From: Thiomargarita sp.
GTDB taxonomy: Bacteria > Pseudomonadota > Gammaproteobacteria > Beggiatoales > Beggiatoaceae
Length of the DNA: 64,000 bases
Assembly: GCA_020721005.1 (NCBI GenBank)
Contig: DYNP01000006.1
Coordinates: 62,001-126,000, forward strand
Direction: 5' to 3'
The position numbers were made by a program, and so were the translations under genes. This document shows positions 17,992-57,197 of this stretch, piece by piece (within the stretch, counting starts at the first letter, position 1; every line of letters starts with the position of its first letter). Under the pieces are notes generated by a model. It did no database searches. It was given only the letters and a program-made list of their open reading frames with translations, and was not told the DNA's origin.

Positions 17992-17997
17992 CTTTGG

Positions 17998-18325
17998 ACT
18001 GGAGGCTTTAGCCGGTCAGCCGTTTTGGAGTGGAGGCTTTAGCCGGTCAGCCGTTTTGGAGTGGAGGCTTTAAGCCGGTCAGCCGTTTTGGACTGGAGGC
18101 TTTAGCCGGTCAGCCGTTTTGGAGTGGAGGCTTTAAGCCGGTCAGCTGTTTTGGAGTGGAGGCTTTAAGCCGGTCAGCTGTTTTGGAGTGGAGGCTTTAG
18201 CCGGTCAGCCGTAAGCATCACCTGATACACACAAATTGCAAGGCGCCGACTCCAATCCGGCTAAAGCCTCCACTCCAAAGTCTACTCCAAAGTCTACCGC
18301 CGGCCGGCTAAAGCCTCCATTCCAA
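17998..18325. repeat. Hairpin-element array 1
   Basis: Seven direct units of 31-32 bp (consensus ggaggctttagccggtcag plus ccgttttggagt) run from 18001 to about 18212. A core follows in reverse orientation (caaattgcaaggcgccgac), then two reverse-oriented half units with ccggctaaagcctccactcc (18256) and a copy near 18302. Units differ by single-base changes (agcc/aagcc, agccg/agctg). This is one locus of the dispersed hairpin family described in the findings. It has no spacers, so it is not a CRISPR array. Confidence 0.85.
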
Positions 18326-25496: not shown

Positions 25497-26060
25497 AGAG
25501 TTCTTGTAAAAGTATGTGATCATGAAAAAATGAAAGTTGTCCCTCAGTTAAGATACATTGGAATAGAGGCTTTAGCCGGTCAGCGGCAGCTCCTTGGAGT
25601 ATATGCTTTAGCCGGTTAGCGGTAATCCTTTGGAGTGGAGGCTTTAGCCGGTTAGCGGTAATCCTTTGGAGTGGAGGCTTCAGCCGGTTAGCGGTAATCC
25701 TTTGGAGTGGAGGCTTTAGCCGGTTAGCGGTAGTTCCTTGGAGTGGAGGCTTTAGCCGGTTAGCGGTAATCCCCTGGAATAGAGGCTTTAGCCAGTTAGC
25801 GGTAATCCTTTGGAGTGGAGGCTTTAGCCGGTTAGCGGTAGGCTCTTGCAATTTATGTATATGAGGTGATGCCTACGGCTGACCGGCTAAAGCCTCTATT
25901 CCAATATACCTTGTAGACCCTCCACTCCGGCTAAAGCCTCTACTCCAATATACCTCGTAGACCCTCCACTCCGGCTAAAGCCTCTATTCTAATGTACCTT
26001 GTAGACCCTCTACTCCGGCTAAAGCCTCTATTCCAATATACCTTGTAGATCCAATCACTC
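25497..26060. repeat. Hairpin-element array 2, expanded on both arms
   Basis: A degenerate terminal repeat (agagttcttgtaaaagt, 25497-25513) and the internal segment gatcatgaaaaaatgaaagt open the locus. Eight forward units of about 36 bp follow (25560 to about 25845; gaggctttagccggttagcg), then the core (ctcttgcaatttatgtatatg, cut here to under 20 in each half: ctcttgcaattt and atgtatatg). Four reverse units with a 44-bp period come next (ccggctaaagcctctattcc at 25883, 25927, 25971, 26014). The right terminal repeat is missing. Because 36 bp is 12 codons, long spurious reading frames cross the array. Confidence 0.85.
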
Positions 26061-28857: not shown

Positions 28858-29276
28858 AGACCTCTTGCAAAAGTATATGATCATGAAAAAATGAGAGTTG
28901 CGCCTCAGTCAAGATACATTGGAGTAGAGGCTTTAGCCGGTCAGCGGTAGATCCTTGGAGTGGAGGCTTTAGCCGGTCAGCGGTAGATCCTTGGAGTGGA
29001 GGCTTTAGCCGGCCAGCCGTAAGTCCCTTGGAGTGGAGGCTTTAGCCGGTTAGCGGTAGATCCTTGGAGTGGAGGCTTTAGCCGGTTAGCGGTAGATCCT
29101 TGGAGTGGAGGCTTTAGCCGGCCAGCGGTAATCCCTTGGAGTGGAGGCTTTAGCCGGTTAGCGGTAGGCTCTTGCAATTTATGTATATGGTGATGCCTAC
29201 GGCTGACCGGCTAAAGCCTCTATTCCAATGTACCTTGTAGACCCTCCACTCCGGCTAATATTTTTGCAAGAGGTCT
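28858..29276. mobile_element. MITE-like element carrying hairpin array 3
   Basis: Terminal inverted repeats are agacctcttgcaaaagt (28858-28874) and atttttgcaagaggtct (29260-29276), 16 of 17 matching, flanked on both sides by AAT (28855-28857, 29277-29279). The interior has gatcatgaaaaaatgagagt, then seven forward units of 36 bp (28921 to about 29165), the core (cttgcaatttatgtat...tgatgcctacggctgacc) and one and a half reverse units. It encodes no protein; mobility would need a transposase acting in trans. The terminal sequence resembles IS5-group ends, by memory only. Confidence 0.75.
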
Positions 29277-40604: not shown

Positions 40605-40695
40605 GGAGTGGAAGCTTTAGCCGAAAAACCGTTGGCGTCCCCCTCACTCCCTCAAATTGAAGGCGCTTACCGCCGACCGGCTAAAGCCTCTACTC
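40605..40695. repeat. Hairpin element 4 (diverged), inside the chpA gap
   Basis: The left arm ggagtggaagctttagccg and the right arm cgaccggctaaagcctctac enclose a core in reverse orientation (cccctcactccctcaaattg). It lies between the two halves of chpA. Confidence 0.7.
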
Positions 40696-40718
40696 CACGT
40701 ATCTCAACTGATTTGCAA

Positions 40719-42720: not shown

Positions 42721-42873
42721 AGACCTCTTGCAAAAGTATGCGATCATGAAAAAATGAGAGTTGCCCCTCAATTAAGATACCCTGGAGTGGAGGCTTTAGC
42801 CGGTCAGCCGTAGGCATCCCCCACATAGTGAGATGGCAAGGGCCGACCGCTGACCGGCTAAAGCCTCTACTCC
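42721..42873. repeat. One-ended MITE-like element with hairpin 5
   Basis: The terminal repeat agacctcttgcaaaagt (42721-42737, preceded by AAT) and the internal segment gatcatgaaaaaatgagagt are present. A hairpin follows with arms 42784-42808 and 42849-42873 (25 bp, one G-T pair) and a 40-nt loop in reverse orientation (ccgtaggcatcccccaca). The opposite terminal repeat is absent. It sits between pilJ and the chpA N-terminal gene. Confidence 0.8.
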
Positions 42874-46805: not shown

Positions 46806-46808
46806 AAT

Positions 46809-47013
46809 AGACCTCTTGCAAAAGTAAATGATGCGATAAAGATGAGATACGAAAAAATAAAAGGGAAATCCCCGTTAGAGTGGAAGCTTTAACCGGAGTG
46901 GAGGCTTTAGCCGGTCAGCGGTCGGCCCTTACAATTTGTCTATGTGGGGGGATGCCTACGGCTGACCGGCTAAAGCCTCCACTCCAACGTATCTTAACTT
47001 TTGCAAGAGGTCT
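46809..47013. mobile_element. 205-bp MITE-like element with hairpin 6
   Basis: Perfect 17-bp terminal inverted repeats (agacctcttgcaaaagt at 46809-46825; its complement at 46997-47013) are flanked by AAT on both sides (46806-46808, 47014-47016). Inside is the best hairpin of the family: arms 46895-46919 and 46961-46985 are exact 25-bp complements around a 41-nt loop (core cttacaatttgtctatg). It encodes no protein. Confidence 0.82.
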
Positions 47014-47121
47014 AATAGATGACAGATACGATAAGCTCATTCAGGTAATGGAGTAAAATGATAAATGATCAAGCCGTTTTTGTCTAAAGTTTAATATAAA
47101 AACTATTCGGAATATTATTGG

Positions 47122-54204: not shown

Positions 54205-54600
54205 TGCAGCTTTAGTCGGTCGGTTGGAGTAGAGGCTTTAGCCGGTAACGTAGCAGACCGCTGCGCGATGAATTTAGCCGGGGTCGAGGCATTAGCCGAC
54301 CAGCAGTCGGCCCTTGCGGTTTGTGTATGTGGGGTGATGCCTACGGCTGACCGGCTAAAGCCTCTACTCCAATTTACCGACTAAAGCCTCTACTCCAATC
54401 GACCGGCTAAACTTCGAGTCCAACCTGCCGGCTAAACCTCGAGTCCAACCTTGGAGTAGAGGCTTTAGCCGGTAACGTAGCAGACCGCTGCGCGATGAAT
54501 TTAGCCGGGGTCGAGGCATTAGCCGACCAGCAGTCGGCCCTTGCGGTTTGTGTATGTGGGGTGATGCCTACGGCTGACCGGCTAAAGCCTCTACTCCGAT
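54205..54600. repeat. Hairpin elements 7 and 8 as a 147-bp direct repeat
   Basis: 54224-54370 and 54451-54597 are identical over 147 bp. Each contains an arm ggagtagaggctttagccgg, the segment cggtaacgtagcagaccg, a partial internal unit (ggtcgaggcattagccgacc), the forward core (cccttgcggtttgtgtatg) and the closing arm ccggctaaagcctctactcc. Further degenerate half units lie in between. The locus separates pilX from pilY1. Confidence 0.85.
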
Positions 54601-55311: not shown

Positions 55312-56340
55312 TTATAAAAATTCTGCATTGCGGATTGCAATGGTGCTGCTGAACAAGCGGTGCCGATATCCCCTCTCCAAACCTGTTTTCTTGCTGGCAT
55401 CATAGTTTTCAGTGTAAGGATTATAGGTAAAATTGGGATCGAGTTTAAATTCCCGATTGGTGGTGTCATCCAAATCAAAACGTTGTTTGGCGGTTCGCAT
55501 CAGTAAGGTGACCCGGACTCCCACAACTTGATCACTCAGTTGATTGGGCAAAGTATCCACATAAGTGATTCCCGCCCCCGCCTTAACTGCATAACGGATT
55601 TGTAGACTTTCAACACCTTCCACAAACGGATATTTTTCGGATTCCTCATTTTTCTCCTCTATGCGATAGAGAGCAAAACCACTGCTGGGATCAGGTTTAA
55701 CTTGATAAGTGATACTGGACAAACTGCCGTCCTCAGATACAGGGTATAAATCGATGGGACGCTCATAGGACCGATTGAGACTGGAAAGTTTGATGAATAA
55801 AGTGCCCAAGGGAACTCCTCCAGTTTGGGTGCTGGTGGAGGCGCTGCTTTGCGTAACTTTGGCACTTTCCCAACCGTGACAATCACTGATCAGTACTTGT
55901 TCCCCCACCGAGGGCACATAACTGTCTCGATCAAGGTAAAGCGTATCTCCAGTCCTGGCCAATTGTCGCGGACTGTAATGTTCTTTCTCATACCAGACCA
56001 ATGGATCACTTAAATAACGGACTGTTATTTTATCCGAGGGGGGAGTATTATTGGCTACGGTCTCATCATTTTCGCCTTCAATGTAAGGTTTATTGCCAAG
56101 CGGGGTGGTGCCATTTTTAGAACATCCCTGAAATCCCGCCATGCGCAGAGTAAAAGTAAGGTCTTCGACAATAAAACGAGCATTGTCTTGCAATTTGGCC
56201 AATTCATCTTGTAAACCATAAGTTTTACGGCTGCTGCCCATGATGCTCAATACGCCATATAACAAAATGGAACTGATGACCAGAGCGATCATGATTTCAG
56301 TGAGACTGAAACCGGTTACTGAAAAAGGTTGCGTTTTCAT
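55312..56340 (-). CDS. pilW: Minor pilin PilW
   Basis: The product has 342 residues from ATG 56340, which overlaps the pilV stop in ATGA. The leader is MKTQPFSVTG, and the mature protein begins FSLTEIMIALVISSILLYGV. PilW-type sequence follows: LAKLQDNARFIVEDLTFTLR, MAGFQGC, later VEGVESLQIRYAV and VVGVRVTLLMRT. Length is normal for PilW. It is part of the priming complex for type IV pili. Confidence 0.93.
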   Translation of the reverse strand: MKTQPFSVTGFSLTEIMIALVISSILLYGVLSIMGSSRKTYGLQDELAKLQDNARFIVEDLTFTLRMAGFQGCSKNGTTPLGNKPYIEGENDETVANNTPPSDKITVRYLSDPLVWYEKEHYSPRQLARTGDTLYLDRDSYVPSVGEQVLISDCHGWESAKVTQSSASTSTQTGGVPLGTLFIKLSSLNRSYERPIDLYPVSEDGSLSSITYQVKPDPSSGFALYRIEEKNEESEKYPFVEGVESLQIRYAVKAGAGITYVDTLPNQLSDQVVGVRVTLLMRTAKQRFDLDDTTNREFKLDPNFTYNPYTENYDASKKTGLERGYRHRLFSSTIAIRNAEFL

Positions 56341-56795
56341 AATCTGAGAATCCAAGTTTGATTTTTAAGATCCTTCTCCTCATCCCGCTCCCGCCAGTAA
56401 ATAGTGATATTATACTGAATTTCGCTACTGTCAAATGTGATTTCTGGATCTTTGTCTGCGGGAAGGATATCCAAAACTTGCTGGTACCAACTGTACAAAT
56501 CATACTCTACCAAATCGGCATAGCTGCACTTCTGCGCGCCTGGCACTCCATTGCAATCTTTACTGGAAGACGTGGGCATGGGTTGGGCATAACTGCCCTT
56601 TCTTGCTTCCTCCAAATTAATACGCATTCTATCCATGAGATCATAAGCAAGAAAAGTGCTTTGAGTGCGCATATACGCGAAATAATTAAACTGCTGGCCA
56701 CGAGTCTGTAAAGTGGCAACTCCCAACAAACCAATTGAAATTACTAACAAAGCGACCAACATCTCTAACAAATTATATCCCTTACAATTTTTCAT
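56337..56795 (-). CDS. pilV: Minor pilin PilV
   Basis: The product (152 residues) has the leader MKNCKG before YNLLEMLVALLVISIGLLGV, the PilV class N-terminus, followed by TLQTRGQQFNYFAYMRTQST and LMDRMRIN. It overlaps pilW by 4 bp. Its 5' 130 bp were copied into the 266-bp tandem duplication just upstream. Confidence 0.93.
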   Translation of the reverse strand: MKNCKGYNLLEMLVALLVISIGLLGVATLQTRGQQFNYFAYMRTQSTFLAYDLMDRMRINLEEARKGSYAQPMPTSSSKDCNGVPGAQKCSYADLVEYDLYSWYQQVLDILPADKDPEITFDSSEIQYNITIYWRERDEEKDLKNQTWILRL

Positions 56796-57197
56796 CTAAG
56801 TACTCCTTATTTTTACAAAGTGCACTGATAGTCAACACTGCGTTCCACCGAAACACTGCCAGTTGACTTGACAACGATCTTGCGACCTTCCAAACGCAAT
56901 TCCTTATCTCGATTGCAAACCACAAATTCAATGCGCATATACGCGAAATAATTAAACTGCTGGCCACGAGTCTGTAAAGTAGCAACTCCCAACAAACCAA
57001 TTGAAATCACTAACAAAGCGACCAACATCTCTAACAAATTATATCCCTTACAACTTTTCATCTAAGTACTCCTTATTTTTACAAAGTGCACTGATAGTCA
57101 ACACTGCGTTCCACCGAAACACTGCCAGTTGACTTGACAACGATCTTGCGACCTTCCAAACGCAATTCCTTATCTCGATTGCAAACCACAAATTCAA
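56666..57197. repeat. 266-bp tandem duplication across the fimT-pilV junction
   Basis: 56666-56931 and 56932-57197 are tandem copies offset by exactly 266 bp. Each holds the 5' part of pilV, the intergenic gap and the 3' end of fimT. Only three differences can be seen, all in the pilV part (gtggcaac/gtagcaac, gaaattac/gaaatcac, acaattttt/acaactttt). Confidence 0.92.
56813..57061 (-). CDS. Chimeric PilV-FimT prepilin-like protein
   Basis: The product has 82 residues. Residues 1-42 equal the PilV N-terminus (MKSCKG leader, YNLLEMLVALLVISIGLLGV), with Asn3 changed to Ser. Residues from IEFVVCNRDKELRLEGRK to SVERSVDYQCTL equal the FimT C-terminus. It was made by the tandem duplication. Its ribosome site and start are those of pilV, so translation is likely. 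The product would keep a processable prepilin signal and the membrane helix but only a short, rearranged head. It may be inert, or it may compete in minor pilin assembly. Confidence 0.7.
   Translation of the reverse strand: MKSCKGYNLLEMLVALLVISIGLLGVATLQTRGQQFNYFAYMRIEFVVCNRDKELRLEGRKIVVKSTGSVSVERSVDYQCTL

Follow-up and report, generated by a model that had tools for sequence, protein, structure and literature searches.

Intergenic hairpins of a Thiomargarita genome resemble dimers of a REP-type repeat, and many lie within miniature transposons

Hairpins between the genes of a 64-kb window

The window is the whole stretch of DNA that was analysed, 64,000 nucleotides from Thiomargarita sp. (contig DYNP01000006.1, positions 62,001 to 126,000). 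It encodes type IV pilus genes together with a ComP-like minor pilin. At 46.9 kb it contains a long hairpin with arms at 46895-46919 and 46961-46985; these are perfect 25-bp complements around a 41-nt loop, and longer arms of 32 nt pair at 94%. The original prediction described a family of such hairpins with a conserved loop, and the further copies that it listed, at 18.0, 25.6, 28.9, 40.6 and 42.8 kb and twice at 54.2-54.6 kb, are all present. The loop orientation that it gave for each copy agrees with the aligned rows. Its quoted loop core was less exact, the actual sequence at 46.9 kb being cttacaatttgtctatg, two changes from the quoted form.

The hairpins each consist of two copies of the unit GGAGTGGAGGCTTTAGCCGG placed head to head, and they are often lengthened by tandem arrays in which single arms repeat on one side. 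These arm arrays, the miniature transposon (MITE) enclosing them and a link to RAYT genes had been overlooked, and the phenomenon is larger than first described. The features of the window are as follows.

46809..47013, no strand: miniature transposon carrying the hairpin, 205 bp, probably IS5-like, with ends AGACCTCTTGCAAAA / TTTTGCAAGAGGTCT
46806..46808 (left) and 47014-47016 (right), no strand: target duplication AAT
46877..46896, + strand: additional degenerate left arm, beginning of a one-sided tandem array
46895..46914, + strand: probable REP unit, left arm GGAGTGGAGGCTTTAGCCGG, GGAG end facing outward
46920..46960, + strand: 41-nt spacer or loop of the head-to-head dimer, both ends prolonging the stem imperfectly
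46966..46985, - strand: probable REP unit, right arm
17996..18323, loop on the - strand: cluster with seven left arms every 31-32 nt, the last of them part of the central dimer, and two right arms
25560..26034: cluster with eight left arms every 36 nt and four right arms every 44 nt, counting the central dimer, with MITE flank sequence on the left side
28858..29276: MITE with both ends present, holding seven left arms every 36 nt and one right arm, counting the central dimer
40605..40696, loop on the - strand: diverged single dimer
42784..42873, loop on the - strand: single dimer, with a left MITE end at 42721
54226..54597: direct duplication giving two dimers that lie 227 bp from each other, with additional arms

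Flank alignment found no MITE flank at the clusters 17996..18323 and 54226..54597. The direct duplication of a dimer-containing segment at 54226-54597 falls between PilY1-like and PilX-like genes. Another duplication lies nearby at 56666-57197, where two tandem copies of a 266-bp unit, 98% alike, extend across the end of a prepilin-like ORF (56337-56795) and the start of the next ORF.

The unit, its arrays and the miniature transposon in the host genome

The arm core GAGGCTTTAGCCGG occurs as 535 + 502 = 1037 exact 14-mers in the host genome (G000; 4.05 Mb, 133 contigs), and the reversed control gave 0 + 0 matches. Within the window there are 40 matches with up to two mismatches, against a mean of 0.24 and a largest value of 2 in shuffles. 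The organization of the copies was studied in 854 kb of G000, comprising 790 kb from three contigs and the window, in which 245 arms (up to four mismatches in 20) group into 41 clusters. The order of arms is (+)n(-)m in 26 of the clusters; ten are runs of several such groups, and five have a single orientation. Arms face a central head-to-head dimer and multiply outward from it on one side or both. In 37 of 48 central +- pairs the spacing is 71 or 72 bases.

The copies had been predicted to lie between genes, and by a crude gene set (ORFs of at least 90 aa, picked greedily, across the 854 kb) none of the 41 clusters is inside a convincing gene. Cores overlap ORFs in 27 of 245 cases (20 seen directly and 7 inferred from order), all within four short ORFs (90-141 aa) that run across repeats and that we take to be spurious.

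The repeat of an array consists of one arm, usually with TT before it, and a spacer. Spacers are different between arrays; within an array they are near-identical rather than unique, on which ground a CRISPR was rejected. Periods include 26, 28, 31, 36, 44 and 51 on the left and 26, 29, 34, 36, 38, 42 and 44 on the right, and up to 13 like-oriented arms are found in one array. We read several of the spacers (at 28.9 kb, for example, ..TCAGCGGTAGATCCTT) as inner stem apparently fused to outer flank, the outcome expected if one arm had been duplicated in tandem. The whole hairpin folds strongly (z -10). Taken singly, an arm gives only a poor fold in single-stranded form (-1.6 kcal/mol, z -0.69), the palindrome inside the unit being weak, and this counts against the REP-type reading given later in the text.

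A few arrays have a different character. At G000:C20:113040-113647 five -/+ arm pairs with a 99-bp period are followed by - arms every 33 bp, unlike the one-sided arrays. The array at G000:C67:252965-253321 (L043) contains 13 units GGA[AGC]TC[GA]AGGCTTCAGCCGG with a 28-bp period and has no central dimer; its TCG variant matches a variant in the flank of the Chloroflexia RAYT gene described later in the text. The densest array observed, with ~20 arms and an 18-bp period, is in a second genome (G007:C11:64276-64640, L074). The sequence TTAACTGA, the TAACTGA heptamer of Beggiatoaceae, recurs immediately outside the arms of several dimers, e.g. at L042:16006-16030.

The enclosing miniature transposon was traced by pairs of the end AGACCTCTTGCAAAA, with up to three mismatches and 150-1500 bp apart, in the G000 DNA examined, a non-random sample because part of it was chosen for holding such ends. 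Cores are present inside all 31 pairs; a 32nd, only 60 bp apart and devoid of cores, was left out by its length. The 3-bp flanks are identical at 22 of the 31 (AAT 12, ATT 9, AGT 1), whereas 2000 rounds of shuffling gave 10.4 agreements on average and never more than 18. The terminal inverted repeats and target duplication expected of an IS5-type MITE are thus both found. Lengths range from 205 bp, for the copy at 46809-47013, to 788 bp, unexpanded elements being 205-300 bp. As the longest are those holding arrays, expansion took place within the transposon ends. Of the 41 clusters, 25 have an end (up to two mismatches) no more than 300 bp away, 11 of them on both sides. Flank alignment, with a cut-off that 1% of random windows pass, detects MITE flank on at least one side of 30, on both sides of 18 and on neither side of 11.

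In the host a PF01609 search gave one match, which lacks these ends, and no autonomous element carrying them came to light. The 15-base end is present in three of 56 relatives, often close to contig ends. It adjoins an IS5-like frame in one of these (G021; NF033581 E 3.5e-23, PF13359 8e-16) and a weakly IS5-like frame in another (G033; 6e-5). In G019 one copy of the end, at L270 (1-370), adjoins an IS1-like frame (1.5e-13), unlike G021 and G033, and two further G019 pieces gave no match. The frames in these three genomes score under the NCBIfam cut-offs because only pieces were read. An IS5-like family is the best guess from these sequences, the one G019 end beside an IS1-like frame making the assignment uncertain.

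Related hairpins and RAYT genes in other genomes

A search with a covariance model, proposed in the original prediction and built here from 43 hairpins, gave at least 150 matches each for G000 and for G007, which is from the same family. At E <= 1e-5 there were at least 38 matches in Lamprocystis, at least 31 in a Thiodictyon MAG, at least 14 in a groundwater Chloroflexi MAG and at least 4 in a Chloroflexia MAG. All of these counts are lower bounds, at most 150 candidates per genome having been scored. Among the matches listed for the hairpin pattern are the Thiotrichaceae MAG S06.Bin195 (G007), Lamprocystis purpurea DSM 4197, Thiodictyon MAGs, a Chromatiaceae MAG, Thiomargarita SulCav and four Chloroflexi MAGs. 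Contigs carrying the hairpin in MAGs may be misbinned; Lamprocystis is an isolate. The exact hairpin is present in one of 400 sampled Chloroflexota, the centre genome of the sample itself. The set of viral contigs gave 0 matches to the hairpin and hence no sign of viral spread. A literature search found no description of this unit, although its GGAG query was a weak test that matched word starts only. The decamer falls within a Haemophilus GTAG REP, according to the part of PMC2817692 consulted.

Genes for Y1 transposases were sought in six genomes (the host, G007, Lamprocystis, one Thiodictyon and two Chloroflexi), and 25 Y1_Tnp matches were obtained. The sole match in the Chloroflexia MAG (G060) is flanked on both sides, in inverted orientation, by GGAGTCGAGGCTTTAGCCGG, which differs from the window arm by one mismatch in 20. 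In Lamprocystis (G057), GGAGGCCGAGGCTTTAGCCGG flanks one of 14 matches, again inverted. Since AGGCTTTAGCCGG has only 109 copies in the 3.5 Mb of G060 and 82 in the 6.9 Mb of G057, bracketing by chance in the two is very unlikely, with a rough estimate below 1e-3. At a Thiodictyon locus (L176) cores lie ~900 bp from the Y1 gene, and it was not scored as bracketing. The two bracketed proteins are 49% identical. The host has a single homologue, an intact protein of 179 aa (G000:C67:44625-45161, L177) that is 33% identical to the Lamprocystis protein and matches TnpArep of PDB 4er8 (E 3.4e-14). The three cluster in a FastTree run with support 0.825, and all pass the cut-off of NCBIfam NF047646, REP-associated tyrosine transposase. 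The Chloroflexia RAYT (L174:1426-1986) has HYPL in place of HYHL at the HUH motif, so it may be inactive, and its frame extends into the downstream repeat.

The unit is not at the flanks of the host's own RAYT, nor does it bracket the two RAYTs examined in G007. Upstream of the host gene, ACGGCTAAAGCCGT and palindromes of the ACGGCTTCAGCCGT type lie close to the start, and the GGAGT repeat is absent from the flanks; the gene end preceding it resembles, by eye, a restriction-modification specificity gene. G007 has only distant RAYTs (best E 1e-13) despite 1420 exact cores. Relatives within the family have RAYTs that are 52-65% identical and lie near repeats such as GGAGTCCAAAGCTTTAGCTTTGG, GGAGTCCAAGATTTATCTTGG and GGAGTGCCAAGCCGTAGCTTGGC.

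The repeats around the wider RAYT clade share a start. GGAGT upstream with ACTCC downstream, within ~330 bases, occurs at nine of 12 clade loci (host excluded, three of the 12 being fragments), and at none of 23 other RAYT loci, five of which have one side only. The three clade loci without the pair are G003, where the repeat is direct and not inverted, a G019 fragment, and Lamprocystis, where the unit begins GGAGGCC. The other RAYT loci have GTAG in an inverted repeat in 11 of 23 cases. A sister unit, GGAGTYCAAAGC..GCTTTG, is present in 15 of 57 genomes with up to 490 copies (reversed control 0). It occurs in six of eight genomes with a clade RAYT and in nine of 49 without (p 0.003, with the genomes related and the clade-RAYT holders defined after the matches were seen).

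The window arm has GGAG-T followed by a stem around TTTA. GGAG stands at the outer end of 136 of 202 host units, three bases farther out than the positions next to the palindrome, where GTGG (110/202) or GTAG (23/202; 133/202 together) is found. The G007 units have GGAC (48/98) or GGAG (35/98) at the outer end and CTAG (41/98), GTAG (24/98) or GTGG (17/98) next to the palindrome. In the flanks of the clade RAYT genes, GTCG, GTCC and GTTC follow GGA. On these sequences the tag in the host is ambiguous, GGAG or GTGG; the reading as GGAG comes from the RAYT gene flanks. The GTAG super-family is marked by a terminal unpaired GTAG or by forms like GTGG (PMC3733652), and these units may or may not belong to it.

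How the hairpins may have spread

Two of the properties that define REP and BIME systems are present in this family, namely a short palindromic, high-copy intergenic unit and inverted pairs with a regular spacer. The third, a RAYT gene bracketed by the inverted unit, is found in G060 and G057 and is missing from the host and from the two G007 RAYTs. The head-to-head pairs, the bracketed RAYTs and the clade with GGAGT-starting repeats together point to a system of this type, and it is well supported that the hairpin family works like one. The hairpin is probably a BIME, in which two units of a REP-type element stand head to head, one per arm; it was probably spread by a RAYT and became the cargo of a MITE, with no host function needed.

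The rival closest to this explanation holds that the hairpin is merely the interior of a MITE spread by its DDE transposase alone, the resemblance to RAYT repeats being historical or accidental. The presence of cores in all 31 end pairs, the significant target duplications, the MITE flank at 30 of 41 clusters and the absence of the unit from the flanks of the host RAYT are all as this rival would have them, and it may be largely right for spread within the host genome. It does not accommodate G007, which lacks the exact 15-base end altogether and has MITE flank at two of 37 clusters, close to what the 1% threshold would let through by error, while holding its 1420 exact cores. The hairpin also occurs in Lamprocystis, Thiodictyon and Chloroflexi MAGs, with a RAYT between copies in two genomes, and 11 of the 41 host clusters are without detectable MITE flank. 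These copies show that the unit exists independently of the MITE, and as a full account the rival is improbable. Still less likely, and hard to credit, is that the arrays are binding sites maintained by the host for a nucleoid protein, DNA uptake or gyrase. The number of like-oriented arms in an array and the pilus and ComP-like genes of the window would suit such a role, but the copies are clustered and outside genes by the crude gene set, and the exact core is missing from 54 of 56 relatives. Uptake sequences are dispersed, in contrast to these clustered copies, and this form of the proposal was rejected on the clustering.

A regulatory RNA, terminator or protein-binding family, acting in transcripts or by a partner bound at the loop, is closer to the original prediction, which took conservation of the loop to suggest a function. 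The strong fold and intergenic location would fit, and the loop is indeed conserved above chance. The alignment has 43 rows, as four of the 48 central pairs had identical centres and were removed and one (L054:6186-6277), with an unrelated loop, was omitted, which tilts the alignment toward loop similarity. Consensus identity over the 48 pairs is 0.805 in the loop, 0.81 / 0.83 in the inner stem and 0.97 in the arms, the last value being inflated because copies were selected by arm. With the loop no better conserved than the inner stem, the argument from the loop to a function is weak; of the functions suggested, a transposition signal is well supported. Nor is the loop generally kept where arms have changed, as had been claimed. 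A loop-first search gave 21 matches, of which 17 have both arms (0-4 mismatches), two the right arm only and two neither (7 errors); only two were counted as keeping the loop without a left arm, and intact arms with a changed loop are commoner. The compensatory changes expected of a structured RNA did not appear, with both-side changes at 3 against 6.6 in shuffles and paired cells at 89.8% against 90.3%. Doubt had already been expressed about a strand-specific RNA, and it is borne out by loops that are sense to the genes in 11 cases and antisense in nine (one dimer per cluster, rows with more than eight loop errors omitted). Gene context does not differ from that of intergenic space (40 clusters: 23 tandem, 11 convergent, 6 divergent; p 0.12), and no Rfam match reached the gathering score. 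Taken together, these four results led to rejection of an RNA role, and the rival as a whole is very unlikely.

Loops in G007 bear on the same point. Only one of 25 sampled dimers exceeds the 95% shuffled level (16), the best score being 20 against a shuffled maximum of 22, so that most have other loops; in 20 of the 25 the arm starts are less than 64 apart. Among the best-scoring model matches listed, 17 of 17 keep a related loop, CGCAATTT.AGTG..GGGGTGAT, a likeness inflated by their being chosen by similarity. Their interiors, of 48-52 nt with ..GCAATTT.AGTG..GGGGT.AT, resemble a G000 variant at C96:11333. Judged by sequence, several spacer classes coexist, one of which either arose before the two genera diverged or passed between them. 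A constraint on the loop would also yield a class common to another genus, and loop function is for that reason called unlikely and not more. Conserved spacers are a rule of thumb for head-to-head REP dimers, and differing spacer types occur side by side, in the consulted part of PMC3733652. Shared ancestry accounts for the conserved loop better than a function does, the dimer being passed on together with its spacer.

For a RAYT-spread REP dimer the course of events may be pictured as follows. A RAYT, an HUH single-strand DNA transposase, would have recognized the unit and spread dimers along with their spacer, the loop being retained by descent with the dimer. In G000 a dimer forms the interior of a MITE that has terminal repeats and duplicates 3 bp of its target. 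After insertion, single arms would have multiplied in place by tandem duplication, through slippage or a switch of strands at the hairpin, possibly with help from the RAYT, to leave one-sided arrays whose period differs by locus. The flanks of the host RAYT, which are without the unit, and G007, with the most copies yet distant RAYTs, count against the host RAYT as the mover of these copies. Loss of the cognate gene after REP spread is described in the consulted part of PMC3733652, and such a loss is assumed here. A more elaborate version, to be held only tentatively, has a GGAG-reading RAYT clade, not set apart in the literature searched, with REPs in at least two sulfur-bacterial families and Chloroflexi; in one lineage the dimer would have been captured by the MITE of a DDE transposon, two unrelated transposition chemistries then serving one element, and the RAYT or strand switching would copy single arms outward into the one-sided arrays.

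The system shares much with REPtrons, as far as the consulted parts of PMC2817692 and PMC3733652 describe them: hundreds of short intergenic units, inverted pairs, a conserved spacer, tandem clusters, a RAYT gene between two inverted units and an abundance that differs sharply among relatives. Unlike those systems, the repeats at the RAYT clade begin GGAGT and not GTAG, base pairing between the two arms of a dimer is far stronger than inside one unit, arms are repeated singly in arrays on one side, and the dimer is MITE cargo in this genome. TIRtrons, in the same part of PMC3733652, likewise have a RAYT-like gene between inverted repeats without GTAG, some of them self-complementary and in dimers or clusters. 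The motif common to some TIRtron repeats is GGGGWSAS, whereas the unit here has GGAGT and a palindrome and exceeds 1000 copies. The terminal inverted repeats and 3-bp target duplications (AAT, ATT, AGT) are those of IS5-family MITEs, from which the elements here differ in that their interior is a REP dimer grown up to 788 bp. The TAACTGA repeats of marine Beggiatoaceae (PMC4679880) are also intergenic and from related bacteria, and TTAACTGA occurs in the outer flanks of dimers. They are, however, direct repeats of a heptamer upstream of starts, and the abstract describes no hairpin or transposase.

Conserved loops in repeated hairpins, then, need not imply function. In contrast to GTAG-reading RAYTs, two RAYT sets with different bracketing repeats are found in one host family, so that recognition of the tag could be tested by swapping. 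A REP dimer that grows arm by arm as the cargo of a MITE bears on how REP clusters form, and the elements of this genome provide a frozen series of steps, from a single dimer through few arms to many, within the same transposon ends.
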